From Phycicoccus sp. CSK15P-2 (GTDB taxonomy: Bacteria; Actinomycetota; Actinomycetes; Actinomycetales; Dermatophilaceae), in contig NZ_JAFDVE010000015.1 of NCBI RefSeq assembly GCF_016888005.1, positions 1 through 32,790 on the forward strand: a stretch of DNA of 32,790 bases, read 5' to 3'. The notes under the pieces are model-generated. The model was given only the letters and a program-made list of their open reading frames with translations, was not told where the DNA came from and did not search any database. A program made the translations under genes and the position numbers. Positions 1,199-23,981 of this stretch are shown here, piece by piece (position 1 is the stretch's first letter; each line of letters starts with the position of its first letter).

Positions 1199-1249
1199 CG
1201 GTGAACCAGCTCCTTCGCGAGGATGTGACAGCGGGCTCCTGCGGCCACA

Positions 1250-1278
1250 ACTCTCACCGTGCTGTTCGGGGGTGTCAA
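1250..1278 (-). promoter_or_regulatory. Putative promoter of the discoidin/DUF1996 gene
   Basis: On the minus strand a perfect TTGACA (1278-1273) is followed after 17 bases by GAGAGT (1255-1250), which keeps the A2 and T6 of a -10 box. It sits about 50 bases upstream of the start at 1198. Called by pattern and position only. Confidence 0.4.
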
Positions 1279-1295
1279 CGCCTGGGTCGGGGCCC

Positions 1296-1310
1296 GGGAA
1301 AGCGCTCTCC
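1296..1310. promoter_or_regulatory. Putative LacI-family (CebR-like) operator
   Basis: GGGAAAGCGCTCTCC is a near-perfect palindrome around AGCGCT, the core seen in LacI-family sites that control sugar-utilisation genes in actinobacteria. It lies just upstream of the TTGACA of the discoidin/DUF1996 promoter, and that gene carries a carbohydrate-binding type domain. No LacI regulator gene is in this window. Confidence 0.4.
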
Positions 1311-1405
1311 TGCCGGCGGGCGCGCCGGTGAGTCGTCGTCGACCGCCGTCTTCGCAGGTAGGGGGCGGGTGGCCGGCCGGTGGAGGCCGGGATCCGGGAC
1401 CTGGG

Positions 1406-1429
1406 GAATTTCTCAGGTTGTGGAAATTC
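1406..1429. repeat. AT-rich inverted repeat in the divergent intergenic region
   Basis: GAATTTC (1406-1412) and GAAATTC (1423-1429) are a perfect 7-base inverted repeat around a 10-base spacer, standing out in very GC-rich surroundings. It lies in the 365-base gap (1199-1563) between two divergent genes, about 135 bases upstream of the plus-strand gene. It could be an operator; no regulator is known. I see no gene in this gap. Confidence 0.35.
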
Positions 1430-1563
1430 GTGGTTCGCTGTCGGCCGGCCCGGCGGCGGCCGTCACCGCGAACCGGCCTCCGGGCCACGAGACGTCGAGG
1501 TGCACGGTCCGGCCGGATCCCCACCCCCGGACGGGTCCCACTGGCCGCGAACCACATGGTTCG

Positions 1564-3420
1564 ATGGGTGGCATGGCACGCAGGGGTAAGAGTGGGCGCA
1601 AGCACCGGACGCCCAACCGGTCGGCGACCCGGGGCCGTGCGGACCGGCCGGTGCACGGTGTCGAGCCGCCGGACGAGCAGGGCACCGAGCTCATCGCCTC
1701 CCTGCGCGCCGCCTTGCGCTCCGAGGACCCCACGGCGCTGACCAGCCTCGTGTCCTCCTTGCTCTCCGTCACCGACGCCTGGTCGGTCCTCGCCGACGAC
1801 CCCAGCGACCCCGACGATGTCACCGTCCCGCTCGACGCCCTCGTCGACTCCTTCGTCGGCACCACGTATGCCGAGACGACAGCGGCCCTGCACGTCGTCG
1901 CCGCGCTCGTCCCCGACGAGCTGGTCGCCGCGCGCATCCGCCATGTCCTGAGCGGCCGGCGCCACCCCGTCCCGGAGTCGGTCAGAGGTGTCCGGGACCT
2001 CACGGTCGAGCACGCGGCGCGACTCGGGGACGAGCTGGGCGACGGCGACAACGTCATCCTCGGGCTCGCCTGGCCCGGTATCGGCGGGGTCACGACCGTC
2101 ACCTACGTGGACGAGGCGTTCGGTACCCGGGTCAAGGACGTCTTCCTCGTGCCGGAGCCGTTCGCGGAGATCTGCGCGCGGTACCGCGAGCTGCTCGCCG
2201 AGAACGGCCGCCGACCCGACGAGCTCACCGAGATCCCGCTCGCCGACGCCCGGGCCAGCATCGAGACCGCCATCGCCCTCGCGGATGCCGACGACGCGCC
2301 GGAGGTCCCCGACGACTGGTCCGACCCCGACGGCGACCCCGTGGGCTGGCCCGGTGCACGCCCGTTCGTCGAGATGCTGCTGCGCCGGATGCCGTCGGGT
2401 GGCGCGTCCACGCTGACCTCCGACGCCTGGCCCGAGGTGTCGACCGAGGAGGCCGTCGCGGGGTTCCTCGCCTCACCGCACGCTCCGCACCTGGACGACG
2501 ACCACGTGCTGGCGCAGGCGGCCGCCGTCCTCGCCGCCGACGCCGCGGAGGGCGCCGGCCATCCGCTGCGCTGGTCGCCGGTGCAGGTCGAGCTCGCGCT
2601 GAGCCAACGGCTGCCGTGGACCGGCTCGGCGACCGACGAGGCGCTCGAGGTCGTCGGCGCGGTCATCCGCCCGTTCATCCGGTATGCCCACGAGCTGCTC
2701 GGTGTCCCGGTCGAGGCCACCGACGAGACGCTGACCGCCGTCGACGAGTGGATGCCGTCCTTCGACATGCTGCTGCACGCCGCGGCCGCCAGCCGGTGGC
2801 GCGAGGTCGGTGCGCTCGTCGACGCCTTCGAGCACGGCGACCCCGTCCCGCTCATGCTGCACACGCTCGCCGAGCAGGTGGGTGGTCAGGAGGTGCTCGA
2901 CGCGCTGACGGCCGACCCGCTGCCGGACGAGCCGCTCGTCCTGAACGGCGTGCCGGCCGACGTCCAGGACGCCGTCGTCCAGATCGCGGAGCTCGCCGAC
3001 GGATGGCTCGACACGTCCCCCCGGGTGGCGCACCTCGGGGCCGTCCGCAGGGAGTGGCGCACCGCGGCCCGCCGCCTGCTCGCCGATGCGGCGCGCACCG
3101 ACCCGGCATGGTTGCGACACCGCGCGTCCGCGTCCGCGCGGGCCTGTGGGCTGCTGTGGGCCACCGGCGTCGCGAACCGGCTCGTCGGCCCGTCCGGCGC
3201 GGTGCTGGTGCGGGACCTCGGGGCGGACTTCGACGTCTCGGGCTCACCGTCGGCCAAGGCGGAGACTCTCCTGCGTGCGTGGGCGGGCGGTCGGTGGGGC
3301 GTCGACCCGACCGACCTCGGCGATGCCGGACTGCTCATCGGCTACCGCCGTGCGGAGATCATCGCCCTGCGTGACACGTACCGAACCGGGCCACGCCAGC
3401 AGGGTGCCTCCACGGACTGA
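1564..3420 (+). CDS. Conserved hypothetical protein, 618 aa
   Basis: The open frame extends back to 1201, but protein-like composition begins at the ATG at 1564. A second in-frame ATG at 1573 (MARRGKSGRKHR) is equally possible, and neither has a strong ribosome site. The product starts with a basic stretch (ARRGKSGRKHRTPNR), then is acidic and Ala/Leu/Val/Asp-rich without signal peptide or membrane segments, so it is probably cytoplasmic. An Asp/Glu-rich region and several Leu-rich helical segments are visible. I do not recognise a catalytic motif or a Pfam family. It runs towards vapC, and the two genes share a hairpin between their ends. Function unknown. Confidence 0.75.
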   Translation: MGGMARRGKSGRKHRTPNRSATRGRADRPVHGVEPPDEQGTELIASLRAALRSEDPTALTSLVSSLLSVTDAWSVLADDPSDPDDVTVPLDALVDSFVGTTYAETTAALHVVAALVPDELVAARIRHVLSGRRHPVPESVRGVRDLTVEHAARLGDELGDGDNVILGLAWPGIGGVTTVTYVDEAFGTRVKDVFLVPEPFAEICARYRELLAENGRRPDELTEIPLADARASIETAIALADADDAPEVPDDWSDPDGDPVGWPGARPFVEMLLRRMPSGGASTLTSDAWPEVSTEEAVAGFLASPHAPHLDDDHVLAQAAAVLAADAAEGAGHPLRWSPVQVELALSQRLPWTGSATDEALEVVGAVIRPFIRYAHELLGVPVEATDETLTAVDEWMPSFDMLLHAAAASRWREVGALVDAFEHGDPVPLMLHTLAEQVGGQEVLDALTADPLPDEPLVLNGVPADVQDAVVQIAELADGWLDTSPRVAHLGAVRREWRTAARRLLADAARTDPAWLRHRASASARACGLLWATGVANRLVGPSGAVLVRDLGADFDVSGSPSAKAETLLRAWAGGRWGVDPTDLGDAGLLIGYRRAEIIALRDTYRTGPRQQGASTD

Positions 3421-10206: not shown

Positions 10207-11133
10207 CTACCTGGGCCACGAGGCCGTCCGGAACGTCTCGTAGGAGATCTCTAACAGATGTCGGTCAGGCCGCTCCTTGCGAGCGCTCGGGACCACCATG
10301 AGCCGCTGCCCATGCCGACCCTGGAGGCCGTGCCGCAGCATCGGGCCGTCGACCTCCTCGAGCAGGTCGGCGCGGATCTCCACCACGAGATCTGGCCGGA
10401 CTCCGAGGATGTGCGTGTCGAACGCCGCGTGGTGGATCTTGCAGAGCGCGAGGCCGTTGCGGATGGCGGCGACGCCGGCCTCGTCCCGGTCCGGGACGAT
10501 GTGGGCGGCGTCCAGCAGCTGGCTGTGGCCGAGCGCGCAGACGGCGCAGCGGGTCTCGTAGGCCCGCATGACCGTCGCTCGGAAGATGGGCTGGTGCAGC
10601 CGCCGGCGCGTCTCGACCGTGATGTACCGCTTGAGCGTCTCCTCGAGCGCGCCCTGCGGGGTGACCGCGCCGTTCGTCACGGCGTCGACGACGAACTGGT
10701 GCTGCCCTGGCTCCTCCCCCACGATGTAGACGGGGTAGGTCGGCAGCCAGATGGCCGGGCCCACCCCGAAGAACCAGATGAGCGGTAGTTTCCGCTGCAT
10801 CGCCGAGCGCAGCGCACGGTTCTCGGGATGCGTCGGGTCGGTGCCGCGGTACTTGTACCGGATGAGCCCGTCTGGCCCGACGGCGTCCTCGTACGGGCGC
10901 TCAGCGCCTTCGGCGCGGTAGACGGTGCGGAACGACAGCGCCGCGTCGAGGACGGCCGGCTTGCGGATGCCGCGCTGCATGTCCATCAAGGGCATCGGCT
11001 CCCCGTGGAAGCGGAACTCCTTGATCTCCTCCGTGGTCAGCGGGTCCGCGCCGTCGTTGGTGCGCCGCGCAAGCCACTCCATAGCCGCCGTACGCAGCTC
11101 GGCGTCGTCGTCCGGTCCCCATGCCCTGGTCAT
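10207..11133 (-). CDS. HNH endonuclease, putative restriction enzyme
   Basis: The 308-residue protein ends in an HNH nuclease domain: C196-x2-C199 (CAVC), LDAAHIVPD with H211, N227 in RNGLALC, C231, and H234/H235-D239 (KIHHAAFD). This zinc-bound beta-beta-alpha-metal fold cuts DNA. The N-terminal ~190 residues (YRAEGAERPYEDAVGPDGLIRYKY region, IWFFGVGPAIWLPTYPVYIVG) resemble the target-recognition part of COG3440-type predicted restriction endonucleases. No methyltransferase is adjacent, so it may attack modified or foreign DNA. It lies 12 bases downstream of the DUF6308 gene on the same strand and is almost certainly cotranscribed with it. Confidence 0.88.
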   Translation of the reverse strand: MTRAWGPDDDAELRTAAMEWLARRTNDGADPLTTEEIKEFRFHGEPMPLMDMQRGIRKPAVLDAALSFRTVYRAEGAERPYEDAVGPDGLIRYKYRGTDPTHPENRALRSAMQRKLPLIWFFGVGPAIWLPTYPVYIVGEEPGQHQFVVDAVTNGAVTPQGALEETLKRYITVETRRRLHQPIFRATVMRAYETRCAVCALGHSQLLDAAHIVPDRDEAGVAAIRNGLALCKIHHAAFDTHILGVRPDLVVEIRADLLEEVDGPMLRHGLQGRHGQRLMVVPSARKERPDRHLLEISYETFRTASWPR

Positions 11134-11145
11134 CCGAACGGCCGG

Positions 11146-11877
11146 CTACGACGTCCGGCTGACCCGCTGCGCGTGCATCCACAGCACGACGTCGAGATGG
11201 CGCAGCCGCAGGTTCGGATGGCCGATGTTGACTCCGTCGCGGGTGGACGCTTCGTCGACCACATCGTCCAGACGCTTGCGAACGTCGGCGTCCTGGATGA
11301 TGCACCGGAAGACCTGCCAGTCGACCTCGTAGTTCTGCGTGGTGCCGGAGAGTCCGAGCAGGTTGCAGACGACGGAGTCGCGGACGGGGAACAGGTCGGG
11401 CCGCTTTCGCGCACAGAGCTTGGCCGCCGTCACCCAGCGGTTGGACGGGTGGGACTCGTGCGGCGCGAGCGCTCGCTTCGCCGCCTCGTGGAGGTTGGCC
11501 ATGGCCAGGAGCGTCTCCTCTGTGGCCATCGCGAGGTCTGCGTCGAGGGGTAGCACCTCCTCGGTCAGGAGATGCCGGATCTCCCGGTTCGTCGCCGTCA
11601 TCTCCAGGAGCTGCCGGACGGGCCGGGGCTCCGCCTGGACGGACAGGAGGGTCAGCGCGAGGAGGTCGCCGCTCGTCACTGCATAGGGATCGACCGGGCC
11701 CACATCGAGGAAGGTCGCGCCCGCGTAGTTCGAGTCACGGTCGTAGTAACGGGCGACGTCATCGACGACGGCGGGGTCACGCAACGCCTTCGTCGTCCTC
11801 TGAAGGGCGCGCGACACCAGCTCCTCTGATGCAATCTCCCACCCGACAGGGACTCCGGCGAACGGCTCGTTGGACAT
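11146..11877 (-). CDS. DUF6308 family protein
   Basis: A 243-residue protein with AGGAG five bases before ATG 11877. Features matching DUF6308 as I know it are YYDRDSNYAGATF, SGDLLALTLLSVQ, WVTAAKLCARKRPDLFPVRD, and the C-terminal LRLRHLDVVLWMHAQ. The WVTAAKL-ARKRP segment resembles a helix-hairpin-helix-like DNA-binding pattern, but that is inference. The function of the family is unknown. The tight spacing to the HNH endonuclease gene suggests that it is a specificity, accessory or regulatory partner of that nuclease. Confidence 0.8.
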   Translation of the reverse strand: MSNEPFAGVPVGWEIASEELVSRALQRTTKALRDPAVVDDVARYYDRDSNYAGATFLDVGPVDPYAVTSGDLLALTLLSVQAEPRPVRQLLEMTATNREIRHLLTEEVLPLDADLAMATEETLLAMANLHEAAKRALAPHESHPSNRWVTAAKLCARKRPDLFPVRDSVVCNLLGLSGTTQNYEVDWQVFRCIIQDADVRKRLDDVVDEASTRDGVNIGHPNLRLRHLDVVLWMHAQRVSRTS

Positions 11878-12152: not shown

Positions 12153-14582
12153 TCAGGCATCCTCAAAGAGGAGAGTGAGCAACTCTTCACTGTCGACTCG
12201 CTGATCCGGGTCGGCGACGCCGTCGACCAGCCTCACGCCTTCCTCCCGCAACAGATCCGCTGGAACGCGGGTGTCGTCCGGCTGGCTCCAGTAGAAGCTC
12301 GATGCAACTCGACCTTCGGAGGTCAGCACCCTCCAGGGGTACGCGCACTGTCGGCAGTTCGTGATGTGCCCGCCCAGTGGTTGGGGCGCGGTGCCGATGG
12401 CTTCGGCGAGCTCGCCGTACGTGGTCCACCGTCCCTCCGGGAGGAGCTCGAGAAGCTCGTGGAGCTGAGACCAGTCGAAACCCGCTGGCCGCTCGGCGCG
12501 CTCCCCTCGGTAGACGGAACGAAGGTCGGCCAGCGAGCGGTCGTCTGGGAGCCGCCAGAATCGCCAGCCGTTCGTCGCCTTTCCACCCTTAACGTGTTGG
12601 CCGGCACTCGAGGGACTCGAGAACGTCCGCCCGTCAAGGGACAGCTGCCCGTCCGACGTGACAGTCGCTTCCACAGAATCCCATTGGCCGGGCCTCGGCT
12701 GCAGCACCGTCCCTGGCTCGATCAGGTTTGCGGCGACCAGGTGCTTCAGCTCGACCCAGGTGTTGTCCCTCACCTGAGGGTCTCTGATGGATCCGACGTG
12801 TCCGCTCGGCACCGGCCAGACCTCGAGTAGGCGCTCAGTCAGCCACGACGTGCGCTCATCAATGGCGGGCTCATCCCACTGCTCCTGCTTGTCAAAGCGC
12901 CTGTTGAGCAGGAGGGCATCGTGCTCGGCCAGCTTCTCCCGCTTGCCGTCCGAGCCTGCCCATGGGCCATTCGACACCGAGCTGTTGAGGCTGGTCGTCA
13001 GGAGCGTGAGGTTCCCCAGGCGATGAACGTGCTCGCCCCGCGCTAGCTCTGCCTCCAACCCTTCAACCGGCCAGCTGGTCTGCCACTTCTGCGGTAGCAC
13101 GTGTTCGATCGGATACCCAACACGCGCCACCTGTTGGTAGCCATGTGTCCCACGCAGATGGTCTTCCACCGCTTCCAGGTACATCCGCAGCCGACCGCGG
13201 GTGTAGCGGCTGTATGCCTGCTCGGTCTGCAGATGCTGCCGGACCTCTTCGTCACCGGGCCAGTACGTCGAGGATGCGTTGAGCTGGGTGAGGTGGGACC
13301 GTACGCGGTCCACGAGCTCACCGGGCGGAGTCTGACGGTGCCGCTTGATCATGTCGGCCACGATTCGCCCGAGATCGGCCGACGTCAGTCGGACGATCTG
13401 CCGCCGCACCATCCAGGACTCGAGCATCGCTAGGACCTCGTCAGCGACGTCCGTCGGCAGTTCGAGCTCGGGGTCGTAGAGCCAGATCATGGCCGGCTTC
13501 AGCAGCTCGACGCCTCCGCTGAGCATCCGGTAGATCGCCATCTGTGCTCGTGTCAGCGTGCGTGACGAGTCCGCCGCAGTCTCGGTCCAGCTCCGGTAGA
13601 GGTCCGCTTGCGTTTTGATATGCCTGAGGAGGGCGAGCATCTCCTGCTGGGCCTCGTAGTCCACGTAGCTCTTGAACCGGACGAAGGTCTGTCGGGGGCT
13701 AACCTCCTCACCGAGCCGGCTGCCGAGCCACTGGCTGAGAAACAGGGAGCTGCGGCTCATCGTGTAGCGGCCGACACTGACATCCTGCTCCCAGAACTTG
13801 GTCTCGAAAGGCCAGTCTTCGGCGTAGGCCAGACGAGTGTCAGCGCCCTCACTTTCCAGACGCTGGAACACGAAGTTCTTGATGAGATCAGCAGCAGTGA
13901 GTGGAGTCCCGCGAGCGTTCAACGTCTCGAAGATCTCCTGCGAGTTCTCTGTTGCCTGGAGGTCGATGACCACCAGCTGCAGCCCTTGGCTGACCGACTC
14001 TGTCAGCGCCGCAGCTCGTGTTTCGATGTCGTCGCTCGACCCGAGCCACTGGTCGACCTGTTCGGTGAAGAAGTGGTGGGCTCGCGTGATCCGCGAGCCA
14101 GCATGTCGCAGGCTCTTGTGGCTGAGCGGCGGTTCAGCGTCCATGACCTCGCGGAACGCCTCCCCGTCCTGGTTGGTATGCGTCAGCTTGAGGGTGGCTC
14201 CTCCAACGGCTCCATATGCCCGGTTGTGCGTCAGGTCGTCGAACTGCTGGGCCAAGGCATCGAGCCCCCGCTCCTCGAACACCGATGCCGCCGCATCGAC
14301 GAGGAGCTGAAGCGTGGTCAACCTCTGCTGGCCGTCGATGACGTTCTTGCGCGGTACGGTTCCGTGCTGCCCCTCGACGGCCTGGAGCACCACTGCCCCC
14401 AGGAAGTGGGTCGGGGTCGAGTAGGGACTGGCAATGCGCAGCTCTGCGAGCCTTGAGATGTCCTGCCACAGGGGCAGCCACTGCTCGGCCTCGTCCCACA
14501 CGTAGGGACGCTGGAACAGGGGGACCATCAGGTGCTGCGGAAGGTAGAACACCGCCTGTGGCGTCAGCACGTCCGTCTTCAT
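12153..14582 (-). CDS. GmrSD-type restriction enzyme (DUF262 + DUF1524) fused to RAMA and alkyltransferase-like domains
   Basis: The start is fixed by GGGAGG before ATG 14582. Four modules are seen in 809 residues. (1) DUF262/GmrS, ~1-300, with FQRPYVW (23-29), VIDGQQRLTTLQ (81-92) and FETLNARGTPLT (218-229), the ParB-like nucleotide-hydrolysing part. (2) DUF1524/GmrD, ~430-590, an HNH nuclease with IEHVLPQKW (H494) and HRLGNLTLLT (520-529). (3) ~605-678, a RAMA-like fold (HLVAANLIEPGTVL, TFSSPSSAGQHV, NGWRFWRLP). (4) ~702-788, an MGMT/ATL-like fold (LPEGRWTTYGELAEAIG, YPWRVLTSEG, ADLLREEGVRLVDG). In module 4 the alkyl-acceptor Cys of PCHR is replaced by Trp (P749-W750-R), as in alkyltransferase-like proteins that bind lesions without repairing them. 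GmrSD enzymes cut glucosylated hydroxymethylcytosine DNA; the two extra modules probably read base modification. Confidence 0.92.
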   Translation of the reverse strand: MKTDVLTPQAVFYLPQHLMVPLFQRPYVWDEAEQWLPLWQDISRLAELRIASPYSTPTHFLGAVVLQAVEGQHGTVPRKNVIDGQQRLTTLQLLVDAAASVFEERGLDALAQQFDDLTHNRAYGAVGGATLKLTHTNQDGEAFREVMDAEPPLSHKSLRHAGSRITRAHHFFTEQVDQWLGSSDDIETRAAALTESVSQGLQLVVIDLQATENSQEIFETLNARGTPLTAADLIKNFVFQRLESEGADTRLAYAEDWPFETKFWEQDVSVGRYTMSRSSLFLSQWLGSRLGEEVSPRQTFVRFKSYVDYEAQQEMLALLRHIKTQADLYRSWTETAADSSRTLTRAQMAIYRMLSGGVELLKPAMIWLYDPELELPTDVADEVLAMLESWMVRRQIVRLTSADLGRIVADMIKRHRQTPPGELVDRVRSHLTQLNASSTYWPGDEEVRQHLQTEQAYSRYTRGRLRMYLEAVEDHLRGTHGYQQVARVGYPIEHVLPQKWQTSWPVEGLEAELARGEHVHRLGNLTLLTTSLNSSVSNGPWAGSDGKREKLAEHDALLLNRRFDKQEQWDEPAIDERTSWLTERLLEVWPVPSGHVGSIRDPQVRDNTWVELKHLVAANLIEPGTVLQPRPGQWDSVEATVTSDGQLSLDGRTFSSPSSAGQHVKGGKATNGWRFWRLPDDRSLADLRSVYRGERAERPAGFDWSQLHELLELLPEGRWTTYGELAEAIGTAPQPLGGHITNCRQCAYPWRVLTSEGRVASSFYWSQPDDTRVPADLLREEGVRLVDGVADPDQRVDSEELLTLLFEDA

Positions 14583-14671: not shown

Positions 14672-15418
14672 CTACTCTGTCGATGTCGCACTCGGATGGT
14701 CGCGGTAGTAGTTGGCGGCCTTCGTCCCGACGCGCCGGGTGGTGACGTCGGCCACGGCTGCATTGACAGGCACGTTGACAAGAGGAAGCGAGCGCACCAG
14801 GGCGGCTCGGGTGAAGTTCACACCGACCAGCCGGAACATGCCCTTCACAGCCTCCAGCGCCGGCCCCCTCAGGTAGCGCTCCAAAAGTCGCTTGCCAACC
14901 CGCTGACCGGCCTTCTGGCCCGCACCGATCGCGCTCTTCGACGTGGTCGCCTCCAGACTGTGAAGCGACATGATCTCGTACGCCCGATCGGACGTGGCGG
15001 AGAGGTCGAACCCATAGGCCGCAGCAATCGTCAAGGTCTGCCGAATCTGGATGCGACTGAGCAGCGCCAGGTCGGCAACGATCGTCACCGCCGCTCCAGT
15101 GATAGCACCCGCGGGGCCTGCCGCCGCTGCGCCCCCGAACTCGGCGAGTGCTGTCGCCATTCCGGCGCCAGCGCCCTCACTGCGCGCGAGCCGCACATGT
15201 GAGTGCTGGATCTTCTTGACGTACTCCTCTGTGGAGAAGTCGGGTTTCCGGCGGTCTGCTTCGACCTGTCGAGCGATCCCCGCCCCATCGCGCTCCAGGA
15301 CCCAGCCGACCATCTTCCGCGGCGCATCCGCTCCCGCAGCGACGAGGTCCTTGGCGAGCGGGAGAGGGTTGACCTTCTCCAGAGCACTCGGCACCCCGCG
15401 CCCTCCTGTGTCAGGCAT
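14672..15418 (-). CDS. EcsC-like family protein
   Basis: ATG 15418 is preceded by an excellent AAGGGGAGGAA, so the upstream extension of the frame is rejected. The 248-residue protein reads SALEKVNPLPLAKDLVAAG at the start. It has a central Gly/Ala-rich helix able to insert in a membrane (AEFGGAAAAGPAGAITGAAV, IVADLALLSRIQIRQTLTIAAAYGFD), then the pattern ATTSKSAIGAGQKAGQRVGKRLLERYLRG and a second Gly/Val segment. The ADLALL-RIQ-A-AYG arrangement fits the EcsC family, which is of unknown molecular function. It lies between two nuclease genes and diverges from the DUF3883 gene, so a defence role, perhaps at the membrane, is possible but inferred. Confidence 0.65.
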   Translation of the reverse strand: MPDTGGRGVPSALEKVNPLPLAKDLVAAGADAPRKMVGWVLERDGAGIARQVEADRRKPDFSTEEYVKKIQHSHVRLARSEGAGAGMATALAEFGGAAAAGPAGAITGAAVTIVADLALLSRIQIRQTLTIAAAYGFDLSATSDRAYEIMSLHSLEATTSKSAIGAGQKAGQRVGKRLLERYLRGPALEAVKGMFRLVGVNFTRAALVRSLPLVNVPVNAAVADVTTRRVGTKAANYYRDHPSATSTE

Positions 15419-15483
15419 TTCCTCCCCTTGCCTCGTGGTCTTTGACACAGCGCATGATGCCTGGCTGGCACTTCGGGCGCAGA

Positions 15484-15497
15484 GGTTCGGCTGAACC
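15484..15497. promoter_or_regulatory. Palindrome between divergent EcsC-like and DUF3883 genes
   Basis: GGTTCGGCTGAACC is an inverted repeat with five-base arms and one mismatched pair near the centre. It sits in the 116-base gap between the two divergent starts, where one regulator could control both. No other operator or clear promoter is visible in this gap. Confidence 0.35.
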
Positions 15498-15534
15498 GAG
15501 TGCCGAAGAGGAACTCCCCGCGTACGGTCACTGC

Positions 15535-16383
15535 ATGCCGACTGGCAGCGCCTGGGATGAAAGCGAGGTCGAGCGGACGCTCGACGCATACCTCGCAATG
15601 CTGCGCCTCGAACTCATCGGCGAGCCGTTCTCGAAGGTGGACTTCTACCGCCCGCTGAGCGGCGACATCGGACGCAGCGAGAGCGCCGTGCAGTACAAGT
15701 TCAACAATGTCTCAGCCGTGCTGGCGGAGATGGGTTCGGTGTTCGTCGACGGCTACAAGCCGCTTGTGAACGTCCAAGGCCTCCTCCGCGACAAGGTGGC
15801 AGACCGCTTCGCCCAAGAGCCTGAGCTTAGGCAGCTGATGATCCGGCTGGCCGAGAAGCCGCCTGACCGCGGAGATCACACTCTCGGGGATCCGGAACCC
15901 GTACCCCTCGATCTCGTTCCACCCTCACGACAGGCGCAGAGAGAGCGAACGGCAGTCACGGTCGACTTCAACGCCTTGGAGTCTGCGAACCGCAGTCGCG
16001 GTCTCGCAGGCGAACTCCTGGTCGTCGAGCGCGAGCGTCGAGTTCTCGGACTGCTCGGTCGTCGCGACCTCGCCGAACGCGTCCGGCACACTTCAGTCGA
16101 GGATGGCGACGGCATGGGCTACGACGTGCGGTCGTTCACCTCGGATGGGCGAGAGCGGTTCCTCGAGGTGAAGACCACCGTGCGATCGGCGCTGCAGCCG
16201 TTCTACGTCAGCGCCAACGAGGTCGAGTTCTCTACCGAGGTCCCAGATCAGTTCTCGCTCGTGCGTGTCTTTCATCTCGATCGTCGGCCTGGTTTCTACG
16301 AGATGCCCGGCTCGCTGCGCACGACGGCGGAGCTTCGTCCCGACAGCTACGTCGCGTGGCCGCGACCGAGAGCAGCCGGCTGA
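15535..16383 (+). CDS. DUF3883 (NO VEIN C-terminal, Mrr-like nuclease fold) protein
   Basis: Start at ATG 15535 (MPTGSAWDESEVERTLDAYL); the frame is open further upstream, but the composition there is poor. The N-terminal ~100 residues (LDAYLAMLRLELIGEPFSKV, RSESAVQYKFNNVSAVLAEM, VDGYKPLVNVQ) form a domain often found on restriction-like proteins. From ~165 the DUF3883 domain follows: RGLAGELLVVERERRVL, then GMGYDVRSF and RFLEVKTT, with the Asp and E-x-K of a PD-(D/E)xK nuclease core, then PFYVSANEVEFS and FSLVRVFHL. The 282-residue protein is probably a DNA-binding or DNA-cutting enzyme. It ends 47 bases before hsdM on the same strand and may share its operon. Confidence 0.85.
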   Translation: MPTGSAWDESEVERTLDAYLAMLRLELIGEPFSKVDFYRPLSGDIGRSESAVQYKFNNVSAVLAEMGSVFVDGYKPLVNVQGLLRDKVADRFAQEPELRQLMIRLAEKPPDRGDHTLGDPEPVPLDLVPPSRQAQRERTAVTVDFNALESANRSRGLAGELLVVERERRVLGLLGRRDLAERVRHTSVEDGDGMGYDVRSFTSDGRERFLEVKTTVRSALQPFYVSANEVEFSTEVPDQFSLVRVFHLDRRPGFYEMPGSLRTTAELRPDSYVAWPRPRAAG

Positions 16384-16430: not shown

Positions 16431-18374
16431 ATGACCCCGCCGGGTTTTGAAGACAAGGTCGCGTTCGTCTGGAGGGTCGCGGACAAGCTGCGGGGGACGT
16501 TCAAGCAGCACGAGTACGGCTCGGTGATGCTGCCGCTGCTCGTGCTGCGCCGGATGGACGCCGTCCTGGCCCCGACCCGCCAGCAGGTCCGCGACACCGC
16601 CGCGAAGTACGACGTGATCAACGAGGGCGTCGACGCGCTGCTCAAGCGCGCCTCGGGCCACACGTTCTACAACACCTCGCGTCACACCTTCTCGACGATG
16701 CTCGGCGACGACAAGAACGTCGCGGCCAACCTGCGCGACTTCGTCAACAACCTCTCCCCCACCGCACGCACCATCATCGAGGCCTACGAGTTCGAGAACC
16801 GCCTCGAGCGGATGGACCGTGCCGGGATCCTCTACGCCGTCCTGGCCGACTTCGCCGACCTCGACCTGCGCCCGTCCGTCGTGTCCAACGAGGCGATGGG
16901 CTATGTCTTCGAGGAGCTGCTCCGGAAGTTCTCCGAGATGAGTAACGAGACCGCCGGTGAGCACTACACCCCGCGCGAGGTCATCCAGCTCATCGTCGAC
17001 CTCCTCGTCGCCGGCCGCGCCGCCCGCGAGCTGACCGAGAACCCCGCCCCGGTCCGCACCGTCTACGACCCGGCCGCCGGCACCGGCGGGATGCTCATGA
17101 CCGCGATGACCCGCATCAAGGACCTCAACCCGAGGGCGAACGTCGCCGTCTACGGGCAGGAGCTCAACCCCGAGACCTGGGCCATCGCCCAGTCCGACCT
17201 GATGATGCAGGGCATCGACCCCAAGCGGATGCACAACGACAACACCCTCACCCGCGACGCCTTCCCCACCGAGAAGTTCGACCTCATCCTCGCCAACCCC
17301 CCGTACGGCGTGGACTGGAAGGGCTACGCCGCCCCGATCAAGGACGAGCACACCGCCCTCGGCCACGGCGGCCGGTTCGGCGCCGGGCTGCCGCGCGTCT
17401 CTGATGGGTCGTTCCTGTTCCTGCAGCACATGCTCAGCCACATGAAGCTGACCGGCTCCCGGGTCGGCATTGTCCTGTCCGGCTCGCCGCTGTTCTCCGG
17501 GCAGGCCGGGTCCGGGGAGTCCGAGATCCGCCGCTGGATCCTGGAGAACGACTGGCTCGAGGGCATTGTCGCCCTGCCGGACCAGATGTTCTACAACACC
17601 GGCATCTCCACCTACGTGTGGATCCTGACCAACGACAAAGCCCCCGGGGACGCCGGGCTGGTCCGGCTCGTCGACGCCCGCGCCATGGGCACCAAGATGC
17701 GCAAGTCTCTCGGCGACAAGCGCAAGGAGCTCACGGAGCCCGCGATCGAGGAGATCGTGAACCTGTTCCTCGGCGCGTCCGGGGAGTTCGCCGACGACGC
17801 TCGCGTCAAGGTCCTGCCTCGGGAGGCGTTCGGGTTCCAGCGGATCACCGTCGAGCGACCGATGCGCCGCCGTTGGGAGGTCACCCCCGAGGCCGTCGCC
17901 GCCGAGCCGTTCGACGCCTACTCCCACCTCGTCGGGCAGCGGTTCGACACCGAGAAAGCCCTGCTCGCCGAGGTGAGCGCACTGACCCCGGCGCAGCGGA
18001 GGAAGTTCGCGAAGACCTGCTCCGTCGCCGACCCCGACGCCCCCGTCATCACCGGACGCGGCGGGAAGCCCGAGCCCGACCCGGACCTGCGCGACGCCGA
18101 GAACGTGCCCCTGCCCGCCGGCTGGTTCGACCTCGACGGCGACGCCCGCACCAAGGCGCTGACCGAGGCGGCGGAGGCCCACCTCGAGACCGAGATCCGC
18201 CCCTACGTCCCCGATGCCTGGATCGACCACACCAAAACCAAGGTCGGCGTCGAGATCCCCTTCACCCGACAGTTCTACGTCTACCAGCCGCCCCGCCCCG
18301 TCGAGGAGATCGCCACCGAGATCAAGGACCTCGAAACCCAGATCCAGACCTGGATGAAGGACCTCGGCCTGTGA
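16431..18374 (+). CDS. hsdM: Type I restriction-modification methyltransferase subunit HsdM
   Basis: A 647-residue N6-adenine DNA methyltransferase. AGAGG precedes ATG 16431. The N-terminal helical domain (FEDKVAFVWRVADKLRGTF, SVMLPLLVLRRMDAVLAP) is followed by the catalytic domain. This has SNETAGEHYTPREVIQLIVD, the AdoMet motif DPAAGTGG (213-220), and the NPPY motif (289-292) that flips and methylates adenine. It also holds NDNTL and the FLQHML segment. With HsdS it forms the M2S1 methylase, and with HsdR the restriction complex. The stop overlaps the GTG of hsdS (GTGA), indicating translational coupling. Everything needed for activity appears intact. Confidence 0.97.
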   Translation: MTPPGFEDKVAFVWRVADKLRGTFKQHEYGSVMLPLLVLRRMDAVLAPTRQQVRDTAAKYDVINEGVDALLKRASGHTFYNTSRHTFSTMLGDDKNVAANLRDFVNNLSPTARTIIEAYEFENRLERMDRAGILYAVLADFADLDLRPSVVSNEAMGYVFEELLRKFSEMSNETAGEHYTPREVIQLIVDLLVAGRAARELTENPAPVRTVYDPAAGTGGMLMTAMTRIKDLNPRANVAVYGQELNPETWAIAQSDLMMQGIDPKRMHNDNTLTRDAFPTEKFDLILANPPYGVDWKGYAAPIKDEHTALGHGGRFGAGLPRVSDGSFLFLQHMLSHMKLTGSRVGIVLSGSPLFSGQAGSGESEIRRWILENDWLEGIVALPDQMFYNTGISTYVWILTNDKAPGDAGLVRLVDARAMGTKMRKSLGDKRKELTEPAIEEIVNLFLGASGEFADDARVKVLPREAFGFQRITVERPMRRRWEVTPEAVAAEPFDAYSHLVGQRFDTEKALLAEVSALTPAQRRKFAKTCSVADPDAPVITGRGGKPEPDPDLRDAENVPLPAGWFDLDGDARTKALTEAAEAHLETEIRPYVPDAWIDHTKTKVGVEIPFTRQFYVYQPPRPVEEIATEIKDLETQIQTWMKDLGL

Positions 18375-19597
18375 GCACAGTCCCACTTCGGCGTCTGATT
18401 GAGAGCGTCCAGAACGGAGCATGGGGAGCCGAAGCGGATGAAGACGCGGTGAACGTACTCTGTGTGCGCGCAGCCGACTTCGACTTCGACCGGCTCGAAG
18501 TCGATCTTTCACGAGCCCCGGTGCGAAGCATCGACCAGCGCACGATGTCACGTCTCGAGTTGAGACCCGGCGACATCGTGCTCGAGAAGTCGGGCGGCGG
18601 CGACGTGGCTCCGGTCGGACGGGCTGTGGCGTTCTCGCATGACCAGCCGGCCATAACGTCGAACTTCGCCGCCCGGGTCCGACCGACGCAAAGAGTTACT
18701 CCCCGGTTCTTGGTGTACGTACTGCGCTCGCTCTACGCGTCCGGAGCGACGCTCAAATGCATCAAGCAGACGACCGGCATCCAGAACCTCGATACCGAGG
18801 CTTGGCTGCAGCTGCCAGTGGTCACACATGAGATGGAGGTGCAGCGGCGGATCGCGGACTTCCTCGACGACCAGGTCGCCCGCATCGACCAGATCATCAC
18901 CGCCCGCCGTAGGCAGGAGCAGCACACTTCAGAACTTGGCCAGTCGCGACTGGCCTCCTTGTTTCGCCGCGTCACGCGGAAGGGGCGGCTCAAGGACCTT
19001 CTGCTGTCTCCACCGTGTTACGGCGTCCTGAAGCCTGAGTACGTCGAAGAAGGCATCCCGATCATCCGGATCACGGATCTACCCGCGTCAGGCGCCATCC
19101 AACGTGACGCCCTGCCGCGAATACCAACGAGTCAGAGCCTAGAATTCCGGCGAACGATCTTGGAGGCCGGTGACGTACTTCTAGGCGTCGTCGGAACTCT
19201 CGGTCGGCCGTCGGTGGTGCAGGGAAACCTCGCTGGCGCGAACGTCTCGCGCGCGATCGCGCGTTTGCGCCCACAAGCCGAAGTGCCAGGCGCCTACATT
19301 CAGGCCGTGCTTCGCTTGCCCGAGTTCGCCCGATTTACAGACGAGGTCACGCAGGGAACGGCCCAGACCGTACTGAACATGGCCGACCTAAAGAACTATC
19401 CGATCCCCGTCGCAGAGACCCCCGAGATGAGGAGCCTGCTGGGTGAGGTTTCGCAGCTCGACCTCGACCACGCAAGCCATCTGCACCGTGTACGTCGATC
19501 CGTCACCCTTCTCACCGAGTATAAGCAGTCGTTGATCACGGCTGCGGTGACTGGTGAACTCGATGTGACGACCGCGGGGAGCGGCATTCCGGGATGA
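18371..19597 (+). CDS. hsdS: Type I restriction-modification specificity subunit HsdS
   Basis: GTG 18371 overlaps the hsdM stop by four bases. The 408-residue protein has the normal two-half design. The first target-recognition domain is at ~1-150 (VPLRRLIESVQNGAWG, LELRPGDIVLEKSGGG). A first conserved helix follows at ~155-190 (MEVQRRIADFLDDQVARIDQ). The second target-recognition domain is at ~200-350 (GIPIIRITDLPASGAI, FRRTILEAGDVLLGVVGTLG, NVSRAIARLRP). The final conserved helix is at ~365-400 (LLTEYKQSLITAAVTGELDV). The two domains set a bipartite recognition site, which cannot be deduced here. Base composition is visibly lower in GC than hsdM and hsdR, as expected for exchangeable recognition domains. 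Confidence 0.95.
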   Translation: MSTVPLRRLIESVQNGAWGAEADEDAVNVLCVRAADFDFDRLEVDLSRAPVRSIDQRTMSRLELRPGDIVLEKSGGGDVAPVGRAVAFSHDQPAITSNFAARVRPTQRVTPRFLVYVLRSLYASGATLKCIKQTTGIQNLDTEAWLQLPVVTHEMEVQRRIADFLDDQVARIDQIITARRRQEQHTSELGQSRLASLFRRVTRKGRLKDLLLSPPCYGVLKPEYVEEGIPIIRITDLPASGAIQRDALPRIPTSQSLEFRRTILEAGDVLLGVVGTLGRPSVVQGNLAGANVSRAIARLRPQAEVPGAYIQAVLRLPEFARFTDEVTQGTAQTVLNMADLKNYPIPVAETPEMRSLLGEVSQLDLDHASHLHRVRRSVTLLTEYKQSLITAAVTGELDVTTAGSGIPG

Positions 19598-19604
19598 GGG
19601 GCTA

Positions 19605-22600
19605 ATGAGCATCACGCACGAGTCAGCATTCGAGGCGGGTATCGAGTCGGATCTGCTGTCGGACGGCTGGGCCAAGGTCGATCCTTCGGGTTACGACCGG
19701 GCGGCCGGGCTGTTTCCGGACGAGGTCGTCGCGTTCGTACAAGCTTCGCAGCCGAAGGCGTGGGAGCAGCTGGTCACCCGGCATGGCGGGGAGCAGTCGG
19801 CGCGAATCCGGTTCCTGAAGACGGTTGCGGACGCTATCGACCATCGGGGCACGGTGAGCGTGCTGCGTGCCCCGGTCAAGGACACCGGTGTCTCGGTGCG
19901 GCTGTGCTTCTTCAAGCCGGCGAGCGGGCTGAACGAGGAGCAGTCGCGCCGGTACGGGGCGAACCGGCTGGGGGTGGTGCGTCAGCTGCACCACTCGGAA
20001 TCGAACACCATGGCGTCGGTGGACCTGGCGCTCGTCGTCAACGGCATCCCGGTGGCGACGGCGGAGCTGAAGAACCCGCTGACCGGGCAGGGCATCGAGC
20101 AGGCGATGACGCAGTACCGCACCGACCGCAACCGGCACGACCTGATCTTCCGCGCCCGGACCCTGGTGCACTTCGCGGTCGACCCGCACCGGGTGGCGAT
20201 GACGACGAGGCTCGCGGGGCAGGACACCCGCTTCCTGCCGTTCGACCAGGGCAGCGCCGGACCAGGTCACCCGGGGACGGCCGGCAACCCGGGCGTGAGC
20301 GGCGGCTACCAGACGGCCTACCTGTGGCGGCAGGTGTGGCAGCGGGACGCGTGGCTGGACCTGCTCGGGTCATTCGTCCACGCCGAGGACGGCGGCCGGA
20401 TCCTGTTCCCGCGCTACCACCAGTGGCACGCGGTGCGCTCGATCATCGACGCGACGGTGCGGGACGGGGCCGGGGTGGACCGGCTGGTGCAGCACTCGGC
20501 CGGGTCGGGGAAGTCGAACACGATCGCGTGGACCGCGCACGCCCTCTCCCGGCTGCACGGAAGCGATGACGTGCCGATCTTCGACAAGGTCGTCGTCCTC
20601 ACCGACCGGACGGTGCTGGACCGGCAGCTGCAGCAGACCGTCGCCGGGCTGGACCACACGCCGGGGACGATCGTGCGGATCGACCAGAAGTCCCAGCAGC
20701 TCAAGGAGGCCCTGGAGGGCAACGCGGCGCGGGTCATCATCACCACGCTGCAGAAGTTCCCCGTCGTCGCCAAGCTCGCCGCGGAGGCCGAGGCCGCCGG
20801 TGAGGCGACCGGGGTGGTCGGACGGCGGTTCGCGGTCATCGTCGACGAGGCGCACTCGTCGACGACGGGGGACTCGGTGACGAAGCTGAAGACCGTCCTC
20901 TCGGGTGAGGACGCCCTCGAGGCCGCTGAGGCCGAGCAGGCCGAGGCGGAGGAGGGCCAGGCGCCGGACGAGGCGCTGCTGGCCAGCGCTGCCGCGCGGG
21001 GGAAGCGGAAGAACCTGTCGTTCTTCGCGTTCACCGCGACCCCGAAGCCACGGACGCTGGAGACGTTCGGGCAGGCCGACGGCGAGGGGCACAAGCGGCC
21101 GTTCCACACGTACTCGATGCGCCAGGCCATCGCCGAGGGGTTCATCCTCGACGTGCTCGCCGGGTACACGACGTACTCGGTCTACTACAAGCTCGCCAAC
21201 GCCCACCCGCGCAACGACCCGGAGTTCGAGTCGAGCAAGGGGCGGGCGGCGCTGGCTCGGTTCGCGTCCCTACACCCGTACCAGCTGGAGGCCAAGGCCG
21301 AGGTCATCATCGAGCACTTCCGGGCCAAGACCGCGAAGAAGATCGACGGGCAGGCCAAGGCGATGGTCGTCACCCGCTCGCGGCTGCACGCGGTCCGGAT
21401 GAAGCAGGCCCTAGACGCCTATATCGCACGGAAGGGGTACGGGGACGGCGAGAGCCCGCTTCGGACGCTCGTGGCGTTCTCCGGTCCGCTGAACGACCCG
21501 GACGACCCGGGCGCGACGCCGTGGACAGAGGCGAACCTTAACGGGTTCTCCGAGGGGCAGCTGCCGAAGCGGTTCCGGGAGGACGGCTACCAGCTGCTCG
21601 TCGTCGCCGAGAAGTACCAGACCGGGTTCGACGAGCCGCTGCTGCACACGATGTACGTCGACAAGAAGCTCGCCGGGGTCGCCGCGGTCCAGGCCCTCTC
21701 CCGGCTCAACCGGACCCGGCCGGGCAAGGAGGACACCTTCGTCCTCGACTTCGCCAACACCACCGAGGAGATCAAGGCCGCGTTCGAGCCGTTCTACGAG
21801 GAGTCCTTCGCCGCCCCCACCGAACCGAACGTGCTCTACACGATGGAGCACGACCTCATGGCCGCCGGTGTGCTCTCGCGGGAGGAGATGGACGCCGCTG
21901 TCACAGCGCTCTTACGCGGGGACGCCACTGAGCAGTCGGTGATCTACGCCAACCTCGGCCCGGCCGTCGGGCGATTCGTGTCGCTGGACGAGGACGGGCA
22001 GGAGTCCTTCCGCGGCACGTTGCAGTCCTTCGTCCGCGCGTACGCGTTCGTCGCGCAGGTGATGCCCTTCACCGACACCGACCTGGAGCGGATGTTCCTG
22101 TACGGGCGGCTGCTGCTCTCCGACCTCCCGGCCCGCGACAACGACCCGATGCCGCAGCTCAGCAAGTCCGTGCATCTCACCCACCTCAAGCTCTCCGTCA
22201 CCGCCCACGAGGAGGCCATCGAGCTGGTCGGCTCCGACCAGGCCGGCACCGCACTGCCGGGTGAGGGCAAGGGCGCGGTCACGGAGCCCGTGCTCGACAA
22301 GCTCTCTGCCCTCATCGAGGCCATGAACGAGAAGTACGGCGCCGACCTCACCGACGCCGACAAGGTCTGGGTCGACCAGCAGTGGGCCGTCGTCAAGGAT
22401 GACGCCGAGATGGAGGCCGTCGCCGTCAACAACGACCGCAGCCAGTACGAGATGGTCCTCGAACAGAAAGTCAAGGACCTCCTCCTGGACCGCCACGAGA
22501 AGAACGGAGTCCTCTTCGACATGTTCTTCGCCAACCCCGACTTCCAGACCATGCTCCTCAACTACCTCGGCGGCACCTACGACGAGTTCCGCCGCGATGC

Positions 22601-22619
22601 CCGAGCACAGAAGTCGTAG
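19605..22619 (+). CDS. hsdR: Type I restriction enzyme HsdR (nuclease and translocase subunit)
   Basis: 1004 residues; GATGAGGGG lies just before ATG 19605, seven bases after the hsdS stop. The N-terminal PD-(D/E)xK nuclease is seen at D140 (ASVDLALVVNG) with E154-L-K156 (TAELKNPLTGQG). The superfamily 2 translocase follows: Walker A HSAGSGKSNT (297-306), VLTDRTVLDRQL, DEAH box (IVDEAHSS, 414-417), FFAFTATPKP, and motif VI region ALSRLNRTRPGK. The helical C-terminal domain binds the methylase. The subunit pumps unmodified DNA and cuts at a distance. All motifs are intact, so the system should be active with the adjacent hsdM and hsdS. Confidence 0.97.
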   Translation: MSITHESAFEAGIESDLLSDGWAKVDPSGYDRAAGLFPDEVVAFVQASQPKAWEQLVTRHGGEQSARIRFLKTVADAIDHRGTVSVLRAPVKDTGVSVRLCFFKPASGLNEEQSRRYGANRLGVVRQLHHSESNTMASVDLALVVNGIPVATAELKNPLTGQGIEQAMTQYRTDRNRHDLIFRARTLVHFAVDPHRVAMTTRLAGQDTRFLPFDQGSAGPGHPGTAGNPGVSGGYQTAYLWRQVWQRDAWLDLLGSFVHAEDGGRILFPRYHQWHAVRSIIDATVRDGAGVDRLVQHSAGSGKSNTIAWTAHALSRLHGSDDVPIFDKVVVLTDRTVLDRQLQQTVAGLDHTPGTIVRIDQKSQQLKEALEGNAARVIITTLQKFPVVAKLAAEAEAAGEATGVVGRRFAVIVDEAHSSTTGDSVTKLKTVLSGEDALEAAEAEQAEAEEGQAPDEALLASAAARGKRKNLSFFAFTATPKPRTLETFGQADGEGHKRPFHTYSMRQAIAEGFILDVLAGYTTYSVYYKLANAHPRNDPEFESSKGRAALARFASLHPYQLEAKAEVIIEHFRAKTAKKIDGQAKAMVVTRSRLHAVRMKQALDAYIARKGYGDGESPLRTLVAFSGPLNDPDDPGATPWTEANLNGFSEGQLPKRFREDGYQLLVVAEKYQTGFDEPLLHTMYVDKKLAGVAAVQALSRLNRTRPGKEDTFVLDFANTTEEIKAAFEPFYEESFAAPTEPNVLYTMEHDLMAAGVLSREEMDAAVTALLRGDATEQSVIYANLGPAVGRFVSLDEDGQESFRGTLQSFVRAYAFVAQVMPFTDTDLERMFLYGRLLLSDLPARDNDPMPQLSKSVHLTHLKLSVTAHEEAIELVGSDQAGTALPGEGKGAVTEPVLDKLSALIEAMNEKYGADLTDADKVWVDQQWAVVKDDAEMEAVAVNNDRSQYEMVLEQKVKDLLLDRHEKNGVLFDMFFANPDFQTMLLNYLGGTYDEFRRDARAQKS

Positions 22620-22730: not shown

Positions 22731-23981
22731 GTGAATCAAAAGGAAGAGTCGGCGATCGACTTTATCCAGTCGTTCACTGCGTTCGCGCCAGCGACTGACG
22801 CCACCAGAAGGCGTGCACTCCAGACGTCCTTGATTAGTCTAGACGCGAATGTTCTTCTAAATTTCTACCGCTATAGTCCTTCTACGCGTCACGCTCTCGC
22901 CGAAGTTCTCTCCGTGTTGAGTGATCGTCTTTTTGTGAGCCATCAAGCAGCAGTAGAATTTTGGCGTAACCGCGTGAGTGTCATCGACGATAGGGACTCC
23001 GCACAGACGCAGCTTGTCGAGCAAGTTGACAAGATGAGTCGCTCGCTTGAGGCGGCCATCGCGGTATGGAAAAAGCGGACTGCGGCGACCGACGAGACGG
23101 TCGCTGAACTGATTCAAGCGGTCCACTTATCTCGGGACCGCGTCGCGTCACTTCTGGAGGCGGAGGCGGGTGAGGACGAATCCATCGGCTATGCAATAGA
23201 ACGAGACCCGGTTGTTGAGCAACTTCGTCACATCCTAAACCGTGGTGTCATGGGCGGGCAGCCAGATTCCAAGAGGCACGAGGAGATGATCGAAGAGGGA
23301 TTACGCCGCGTCGCAAACGAGGAACCGCCTGGCTACCTGGACGCGGACAAGTCGACACACGAGGAGGGCGCTGCAGGCGACTACATGGTCTGGAGACAGA
23401 CGCTCGACGAAGCTAAACATCGTGGCCTTCCAGTCGTTATCGTGACGGGCGATGAAAAGGACGACTGGTGGTGGCGGCATCGCGGCACTGTCCTTGGACC
23501 CAGACGCGAGTTGATGCATGAATGTCGGCTAGAAACTGGACAGCCGCCGGTATTTCTACGCCCCACGGACCTCGTGCGGCTCGCCGATGCGCTGAACGTC
23601 TCTGTTGACCCGGCCGCGGCAGCGGATATCGAGCGCGCGTCAGAGCCAGTACGCGAAGCCGCATGGACAAAGGAAGCAGCGCACGAACTTCTAGCGCGTC
23701 TTGATGCTGAGACGGATCCACGCGCTGAGGTGATTCGGTTTGCGGCGGTGAATGGCGGATATATTAAGCGGTCTGAGGTATTTCTCCTGTGCGGTTATGA
23801 CGAAGACCGGATGCTCAGGGGTTTCACGCGCCCTGTTCGGCGCATTACTCGTAGCTTAATAGACGATGGCCTCCTGCCCGCTGAACCGGTGGACGTCCTA
23901 ATCCCCGACTACGGGACGGGCGTCGTCGCCCGCGGCTTTTTTGTCCCCGACGAGGTCGTCGGATTGATACAGACTGCATAG
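22731..23981 (+). CDS. PIN-like (PIN_8 type) domain protein, low GC
   Basis: GTG 22731 has GGAG six bases upstream. The 416-residue protein has a PIN-like nuclease domain. It starts at ~residue 36 with SLISLDANVLLNFYRY (first Asp), then LFVSHQAAVEFWRNRV (conserved Glu and E-x-x-R-N-R), a charged helical insert of ~100 residues, and AAGDYMVWRQTLDEA with LPVVIVTGDEKDDWWW (last Asp cluster). This arrangement fits PIN_8 predicted nucleases, typical of defence islands. The C-terminal ~120 residues are not recognised. GC content is well below the neighbours, with A/T at many third positions, so the gene arrived from elsewhere. It lies 111 bases after hsdR and before a strong terminator. Confidence 0.85.
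   Translation: MNQKEESAIDFIQSFTAFAPATDATRRRALQTSLISLDANVLLNFYRYSPSTRHALAEVLSVLSDRLFVSHQAAVEFWRNRVSVIDDRDSAQTQLVEQVDKMSRSLEAAIAVWKKRTAATDETVAELIQAVHLSRDRVASLLEAEAGEDESIGYAIERDPVVEQLRHILNRGVMGGQPDSKRHEEMIEEGLRRVANEEPPGYLDADKSTHEEGAAGDYMVWRQTLDEAKHRGLPVVIVTGDEKDDWWWRHRGTVLGPRRELMHECRLETGQPPVFLRPTDLVRLADALNVSVDPAAAADIERASEPVREAAWTKEAAHELLARLDAETDPRAEVIRFAAVNGGYIKRSEVFLLCGYDEDRMLRGFTRPVRRITRSLIDDGLLPAEPVDVLIPDYGTGVVARGFFVPDEVVGLIQTA

Follow-up and report, generated by a model that had tools for sequence, protein, structure and literature searches.

The window analyzed here, the whole 32,790-nucleotide stretch at positions 1 to 32,790 of contig NZ_JAFDVE010000015.1 of Phycicoccus sp. CSK15P-2, contains a gene whose product is best read, with a probability of about 0.55, as a stand-alone, single-chain type IV (modification-dependent) restriction enzyme of the GmrSD superfamily that carries an exchangeable C-terminal recognition arm. 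The gene is a single unbroken open reading frame (ORF) for 809 residues on the minus strand (12153-14582) with an ATG start, and the plus-strand frame over the same positions contains stop codons. Along the protein, Pfam identified GmrSD_N, GmrSD_C, RAMA and DNA_binding_1 (PF01035), in this order. It was indeed found that the protein has the sequence marks of the GmrSD family, i.e., the DUF262 and DUF1524 domains, the (I/V)DGQQR family motif (PMC10952713) at residues 82-87, and EHxxP, the motif of His-Me finger nucleases (PMC12707154). These were compared in a 27-row alignment (A1), which included the window and, of the 30 loci of the tblastn search for relatives, left out L036, L044, L049 and L053; the relatives in it were 49-79% identical to the window protein, and D83-R87 was invariant, as were N671, W673, F675 and W676 of the RAMA domain. 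The two top PADLOC models, Orf5 (4e-88) and HEC-06 (3e-64), both spanned the GmrSD part. The PF01035 match scored 23.0 bits in the whole-protein scan (residues 708-783, 7.4e-5), below the 27-bit cut-off, and exceeded it (27.9 bits) when the 102-residue fragment was scanned by itself; moreover, all 31 members of a further alignment of the domain (A5) matched PF01035 at E ≤0.01. The original prediction, made from the sequence, of a DUF262-DUF1524 enzyme of the GmrSD type followed by a RAMA and an MGMT/alkyltransferase-like (ATL) domain was thus borne out by the Pfam order, the invariant DGQQR and EHxxP motifs, and the structural searches described below.

Structural models were obtained with AlphaFold2 for the full-length protein (mean predicted local distance difference test, pLDDT, 81.4; predicted template modeling score, pTM, 0.56) and for residues 596-809 (mean pLDDT 86.8; pTM 0.52). 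When the whole model was compared with the PDB by Foldseek, DndI, SspE and BrxU ranked at the top. With the 596-809 model, E ≤0.001 was reached only by CcrM and MPND, both through their RAMA domains (probability 1.00; target TM-score, TMt, up to 0.72 for MPND), and VpATL (2kif) came next (E 0.0024, probability 1.00, TMt 0.59), followed, after many MGMT chains, by Schizosaccharomyces pombe Atl1 (3gva; E 0.047, probability 0.99, TMt 0.57). Residues 702-788, for which an MGMT fold had been proposed, therefore take up that fold in the model, which falls on the RAMA folds of CcrM and MPND and on the folds of VpATL and Atl1. The RAMA domain was recognized by sequence profile as well as by fold, the adenine methylase CcrM being the closest solved sequence in the search with its profile (A7; 3.3e-7).

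The residues of the ATL-fold domain were counted in 37 family rows, set against 20 rows of MGMTs or Trp-type ATLs; an earlier alignment had 32 family rows and six of MGMT/ATL. Both alignments counted L055, a letter-for-letter repeat of L026 in this domain, and omitted the copies L004, L006 and L054 and the interrupted L078; the 37-row count also omitted the copies L080 and L081, the partial L086, and L088. Most ATLs are reported to have Trp in place of the acceptor Cys, together with a conserved Arg finger (PMC10779285). The family has the fold of the MGMT C-terminal domain, the base-flipping Tyr (36 of 37) and no acceptor Cys (0 of 37), all as in an ATL, but it has neither the Trp, the window residue being P749, nor the Arg finger, which is Q734 in the window and is absent in 36 of the 37 rows, L089 being the exception. 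The motif P749-W750-R had been taken as a Trp replacing the alkyl-acceptor Cys, as in ATLs. Its numbering was correct and the loss of the Cys was upheld in every family row, but the Cys column, counted ungapped from the conserved Arg, is occupied by P749 (35 of the 37 rows have Ala or Pro there, and none has Trp), and W750 falls in the His column. W750 was accordingly rejected as the ATL Trp, both by these alignments and by a HMMER alignment of the A5 profile to Atl1, which placed the family Ala on the Atl1 Trp, His on His, and Gln on the finger Arg. Judged from these columns, the domain is an ATL-fold relative rather than a Trp-type ATL, and repair by alkyl transfer is unlikely because the acceptor Cys is absent. 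In the former active-site loop, the F-x-W columns read F13 Y1 and F14 in 14 short PCHR-bearing MGMTs, so that only the Trp (W765) is peculiar to the family; the loop may have been derived from that of these short MGMTs, with the Trp as a new acquisition. The 17 rows with both C743 and C746 comprise 12 RAMA-bearing GmrSD proteins (one a duplicate) and five PD-(D/E)XK proteins. In four small Cys-less proteins (L085, L087, L090, L105), the Arg finger is kept in three.

The same Cys-less domain recurs on effectors of several kinds, which fits a role in recognition and adds to the interest of the finding, since these effectors are unrelated to one another. All tallies of the genome searches are lower bounds, as the best 12-13 candidates were scored in most genomes. 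A six-row profile of the domain (A3), run over 394 genomes of the class, matched at least 25 of them at E ≤1e-8, the window included. In 21 of the 24 loci outside the window the domain is fused to a nuclease-bearing ORF: 16 are GmrSD fusions, three with RAMA and 13 without it by the local profile, and five (L058-L062) have a PD-(D/E)XK-type N-terminus resembling PADLOC PDC-S11. The other three are L071, with a winged-helix-like start, the short L076, and the interrupted L078; counting all types, a long effector ORF carries the domain in 22 of the 24. The PD-(D/E)XK assignment is based on matches below the cut-offs, namely weak NucS_C matches in L058, L060 and L062 and NCBIfam NucS matches in L059 and L060, along with PADLOC PDC-S11 for L059 (1e-47) and L060 (1e-50); L061 was assigned because it resembles L059 (80% over the middle region). 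The middle of these proteins is tentatively RAMA, with an hhalign probability of 72, although the local RAMA profile misses it at 1e-3. In L012 and L020, the ATL-fold domain is joined to an AAA_5 ATPase of the McrB type (AAA+); L012 matched NCBIfam McrB at 5e-45 and 154 bits, the cut-off being 637. A search of 396 genomes of the phylum with profile A5 matched at least 26, of which 14 did so through nothing but PCHR-bearing MGMTs; new from this search were L082 and L083 (GmrSD-RAMA-ATL), L079 and L089 (GmrSD-ATL), and short proteins. The full GmrSD-RAMA-ATL arrangement was thereby found in at least 11 distinct loci (the window, L007, L024, L025, L026, L027, L046, L056, L057, L082 and L083). Neither one tblastn query against phages (E 0.01) nor one scan of viral contigs showed a relative of the domain, and the L067 domain, used as tblastn query against 72,556 plasmid records, matched a single record, a Streptomyces plasmid. 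A type I-E CRISPR gene is located about 6 kb away from a GmrSD-ATL gene on a Streptomyces plasmid.

The arm is also absent from many close relatives. Among the 30 loci of the tblastn search for GmrSD relatives, judged on ORFs of at least 100 residues, five have the ATL-fold arm, 24 do not, and L053 is a distant partial match. The match extended to residue 688 or beyond in all 24 arm-less relatives, Pfam RAMA was present in both of those checked (L028 and L036), and the domain queries gave no tblastn match in the arm-less loci at E 0.05. In L036 (1429-3963, plus strand), DUF4268 replaces the ATL-fold arm of the window in a GmrSD-RAMA-DUF4268 protein; several plasmid proteins resembling the PDC-S11-type nuclease of L059 also carry a DUF4268 annotation. 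Behind the stop of L052, 19 of the 95 last alignment columns are identical in a stretch with internal stops (local score 50, where 200 base shuffles reached 49 at most), which gives a hint, and only that, of a decayed ATL-fold copy.

In a tree of the domain with 37 rows, nine RAMA-bearing GmrSD copies and four of the five PD-(D/E)XK copies grouped together (86/90), outside the 13 RAMA-less GmrSD copies, two of which (L075 and L077) come next. In a 60-row tree, the family fell with the four small Cys-less proteins across a 96/93 branch from sixteen MGMTs and four Trp-type ATLs, and it did not form one resolved clade within its side. The tree of the GmrSD core, which took 11 of the 13 RAMA-less GmrSD-ATL loci, placed all eleven cores (95/95) apart from the RAMA-bearing lineage. 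Since the arm is borne by distantly related GmrSD cores as well as by effectors of different kinds, its exchange between them is likely from these trees, if not firmly resolved.

Several further segments were seen in these proteins. L007 (988-4140, minus strand), a GmrSD-RAMA-ATL relative, has about 170 additional C-terminal residues with no Pfam match at E 0.01; their correspondence to the middle of the McrB-type proteins was not supported (hhalign probability 1.7). Eleven GmrSD-ATL proteins (L063-L069, L072, L074, L075 and L077) have tails of 155-172 residues behind the ATL-fold domain, in which Pfam found no match in the three scanned (L063, L066, L077). The tail of L071 is weakly similar to these (hhalign probability 31). 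L071 itself (229-2205, minus strand) consists of the winged-helix-like start, the ATL-fold domain, and an RRNNIAH stretch that is HEPN-like by eye; its Pfam scan returned PF01035 only and no HEPN, and it is possibly a further effector type.

In the mechanism that we favor, the DUF262 half would serve as a switch by binding and hydrolyzing nucleoside triphosphate (NTP), DNA cleavage would fall to the DUF1524 HNH half, and the RAMA domain would grip the DNA backbone. The ATL-fold domain, in which the acceptor Cys and the Arg finger are lost but the fold and the base-flipping Tyr remain, would bind DNA and inspect or take up a modified base, for which P749, W750, F763 and W765 may line a remodeled pocket; engagement of the modified site would then lead to NTP-driven activation of the nuclease. 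The flipping of the base, the lining of the pocket and the order of these signals are inferred, and the enzyme would presumably restrict phage DNA, with the ATL-fold domain as the probable reader of its modification. A swappable modification reader is, overall, the best reading of this domain, as a related Cys-less fold on unrelated defense-type proteins suggests an exchangeable sensor of altered DNA. A more far-reaching version, which we hold only tentatively and regard as rather unlikely in its entirety, is that in Actinomycetota the Arg-finger-less and Cys-less branch of the MGMT fold has turned into a dedicated reader of modified bases for type IV-like restriction, swappable among GmrSD, PD-(D/E)XK and McrB-type effectors, and that its remodeled aromatic loop takes a hypermodified actinophage purine, such as a 7-deazaguanine derivative, the latter being a guess from phage chemistry.

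A number of observations weigh against a recognition arm and must be set beside the alternatives. The pTM of both models is modest, so that the relative placement of the domains is not fixed by them; the Foldseek E-values for the ATL-fold matches are likewise modest; the domain trees were built on about 110 columns, and in the 60-row tree a single one of the five PD-(D/E)XK copies, L060, stays with the GmrSD copies that bear RAMA (89/85), the other four having no supported position. The Arg finger, which is used for base flipping, is missing in all rows but one, and the GmrSD-ATL protein L089, which has it, lacks both the Tyr and the F-x-W. GmrSD and BrxU, which are plain DUF262-DUF1524 enzymes, act on modified DNA, so that recognition of the substrate may require no more than the core, and the RAMA domains of CcrM and MPND are reported to contact only the DNA backbone, with no effect of N6-methyladenine (6mA) on MPND binding (PMC9963953). 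It is conceivable that the ATL-fold and RAMA domains are nothing but non-specific DNA clamps, and that the substrate is chosen entirely by the GmrS/GmrD core, as is presumably the case for BrxU. Such clamps would agree with the loss of the Cys in all rows and of the Arg finger in nearly all, with the backbone contacts of RAMA, with close relatives that do without the ATL-fold domain, and with the two-domain BrxU. Against it stand the pocket region, which has not decayed (Y722 in 36, R751 in 36, F763 in 35 and W765 in 36 of the 37 rows), and the joining of the domain to effectors of unlike chemistry; we consider this explanation possible, but on the unlikely side.

The recognition could also reside in the RAMA domain as a real reader of 6mA or another mark, with the ATL-fold domain as an accessory, an explanation that overlaps with the favored one. 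The reach of the tblastn match to residue 688 or beyond in the arm-less relatives, the four invariant residues of RAMA, and the proximity of the domain to the adenine methylase CcrM speak for it, but 13 GmrSD-ATL loci of the A3 search have no RAMA by the local profile, and the type I N6-methylases found beside 8 of 29 relatives mean that a plain 6mA reader could endanger its host; along with the reported indifference of MPND to 6mA, this makes it improbable. The idea that fared worst is that of a nuclease coupled to a genuine ATL sensor, which would detect guanine lesions of the O6-alkyl or bulky kind. Atl1 and VpATL are indeed what the domain matches best by profile and by Foldseek, and an acceptor Cys is lacking, as in ATLs; nonetheless, W750 stands outside the Cys column, 36 of 37 rows are devoid of the Arg finger, and the Trp-type ATLs lie across the 96/93 branch, so that the sensing of O6-alkylguanine is not supported. 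Furthermore, cutting of its own alkylated chromosome should harm the host, and the genome already contains, besides a stand-alone WWRV ATL (L003), two genes of the MGMT type with PCHR. We regard such a sensor as highly improbable, and thus retain the modification-dependent enzyme with an exchangeable arm.

Compared with the known GmrSD-family enzymes (GmrSD, Eco94GmrSD and BrxU; PMC4619093, PMC10952713), the window protein shares the one-chain DUF262 and DUF1524 arrangement, DGQQR and EHxxP, as these are described there, and differs in having both a RAMA and a Cys-less ATL-fold domain. From the ATL proteins Atl1 and VpATL, with which it has the fold, the Tyr and the missing Cys in common, the family differs in the Ala/Pro instead of Trp, the absent Arg finger, the F-x-W loop, the mostly long effector ORF, and its place on the other side of the 96/93 branch. 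The RAMA domain is like those of CcrM (6pbd) and MPND (7ydw) in profile and fold, although attached to GmrSD. SspE and DndI, the phosphorothioation-sensing DUF262 proteins that matched the whole model best, are described as sensing backbone sulfur, and no RAMA or ATL-fold arm was seen among the matches of the solved chains. The PDC-S11-like and McrB-type proteins have the same Cys-less domain, with a PD-(D/E)XK-type nuclease or an AAA+ motor in place of GmrSD. It is to be noted that PF01035, DUF4357 and DUF4268 were reported in GmrSD homologs in 2015, PF01035 in several, mainly from Streptomyces (PMC4619093), and therefore the fusion itself is not new. A literature search, largely limited to open-licence papers, found no description of the combination of RAMA with the ATL-fold domain or of the domain on PDC-S11 or McrB proteins; the main text of a census of McrBC (PMC11090510) contains none of the terms MGMT, methylguanine and alkyl. 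The role of RAMA as a modified-base reader is disputed, the lack of a 6mA effect on MPND being one study's result against an earlier report that it cites (PMC9963953), and a 2025 paper on BrxU calls the recognition of modified DNA by GmrSD-family enzymes unclear (PMC12409352).

The gene lies in a defense-type stretch (Table 1), in which EcsC is followed upstream by type I HsdM, HsdS and HsdR genes and a PIN_8 protein; the G+C content around the PIN_8 gene is about 0.60-0.61, compared with 0.69 for the whole window. The Phycicoccus relative L024 has EcsC in common with the window and carries the same HsdM, HsdS and HsdR set beside its copy of the gene. HNH_2, DUF6308 and EcsC were considered as constant partners and dismissed: in flanks of up to 8 kb of the 29 loci L024-L052, tblastn at 1e-6 gave no counterpart of the HNH_2 and DUF6308 proteins of the window, and EcsC recurred only in L024. 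No constant partner gene was seen across these 29 loci, the commonest neighbor family being the type I N6-methylase (8 of 29).

Table 1 Coordinates of the GmrSD-RAMA-ATL gene, its domains and residues, and its neighbors in the window
Feature	Position	Strand	Basis or details
Whole gene, GmrSD-RAMA-ATL-fold protein	12153..14582	-	809-aa ORF, Pfam, full-length homologs
GmrS / DUF262 domain, residues 18-239, NTPase-type, ParB/Srx-like	13866..14531	-	Pfam GmrSD_N 2e-34; Foldseek of whole model to DndI, SspE, BrxU
DGQQR motif, residues 83-87	14322..14336	-	Invariant in 27/27 A1 rows
GmrD / DUF1524 HNH nuclease domain, residues 441-583	12834..13262	-	Pfam GmrSD_C 2e-23
EHVLP (EHxxP) nuclease motif, residues 493-497	13092..13106	-	E493, H494, P497 invariant in 27/27 A1 rows
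RAMA domain, residues 605-695	12498..12770	-	Pfam 8.8e-20; Foldseek CcrM 6pbd, MPND 7ydw, probability 1.00; profile A7 to CcrM 3.3e-7
MGMT/ATL-fold Cys-less domain, residues 703-799	12186..12476	-	PF01035 27.9 bits (102-aa fragment); Foldseek 2kif probability 1.00, 3gva probability 0.99
Y722, counterpart of MGMT/ATL base-flipping Tyr	12417..12419	-	Y36 I1 of 37 (not Y: L089); Y in 20/20 MGMT/Trp-ATL rows
Q734 in Arg-finger column	12381..12383	-	Q24 V10 H1 M1 R1 of 37; R in 20/20 MGMT/Trp-ATL rows
C743-x-x-C746 pair, end of recognition helix	12345..12356	-	Both Cys in 17/37 rows
P749-W750-R751, the Cys, His and Arg columns of PCHR	12330..12338	-	37 rows: Cys column A29 P6 R1 S1; His column H21 W10 Y5 Q1; Arg column R36 G1
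F763-x-W765 in former active-site loop	12288..12296	-	F in 35/37, W in 36/37 rows
EcsC-family protein	14672-15598	-	89 bases upstream of the GmrSD-RAMA-ATL gene, same strand
Type I restriction-modification HsdM, HsdS, HsdR	16431-22619	+	
PIN_8 domain protein, after HsdR	22731-23981	+	1.5e-60
HNH_2 and DUF6308 proteins, downstream of gene	10207-11133 and 11146-11877	-	

As some of the related enzymes (49-79% identical to the window protein) bear the ATL-fold arm and others lack it, the question of recognition can be put to the test by deletion and swapping of the domain. If the favored reading is true, a repair fold would have been reused as a portable reader on unrelated effectors, and would be an addition to the recognition modules described for such systems, i.e., wH, YTH, ASCH, HARE-HTH and RAMA.

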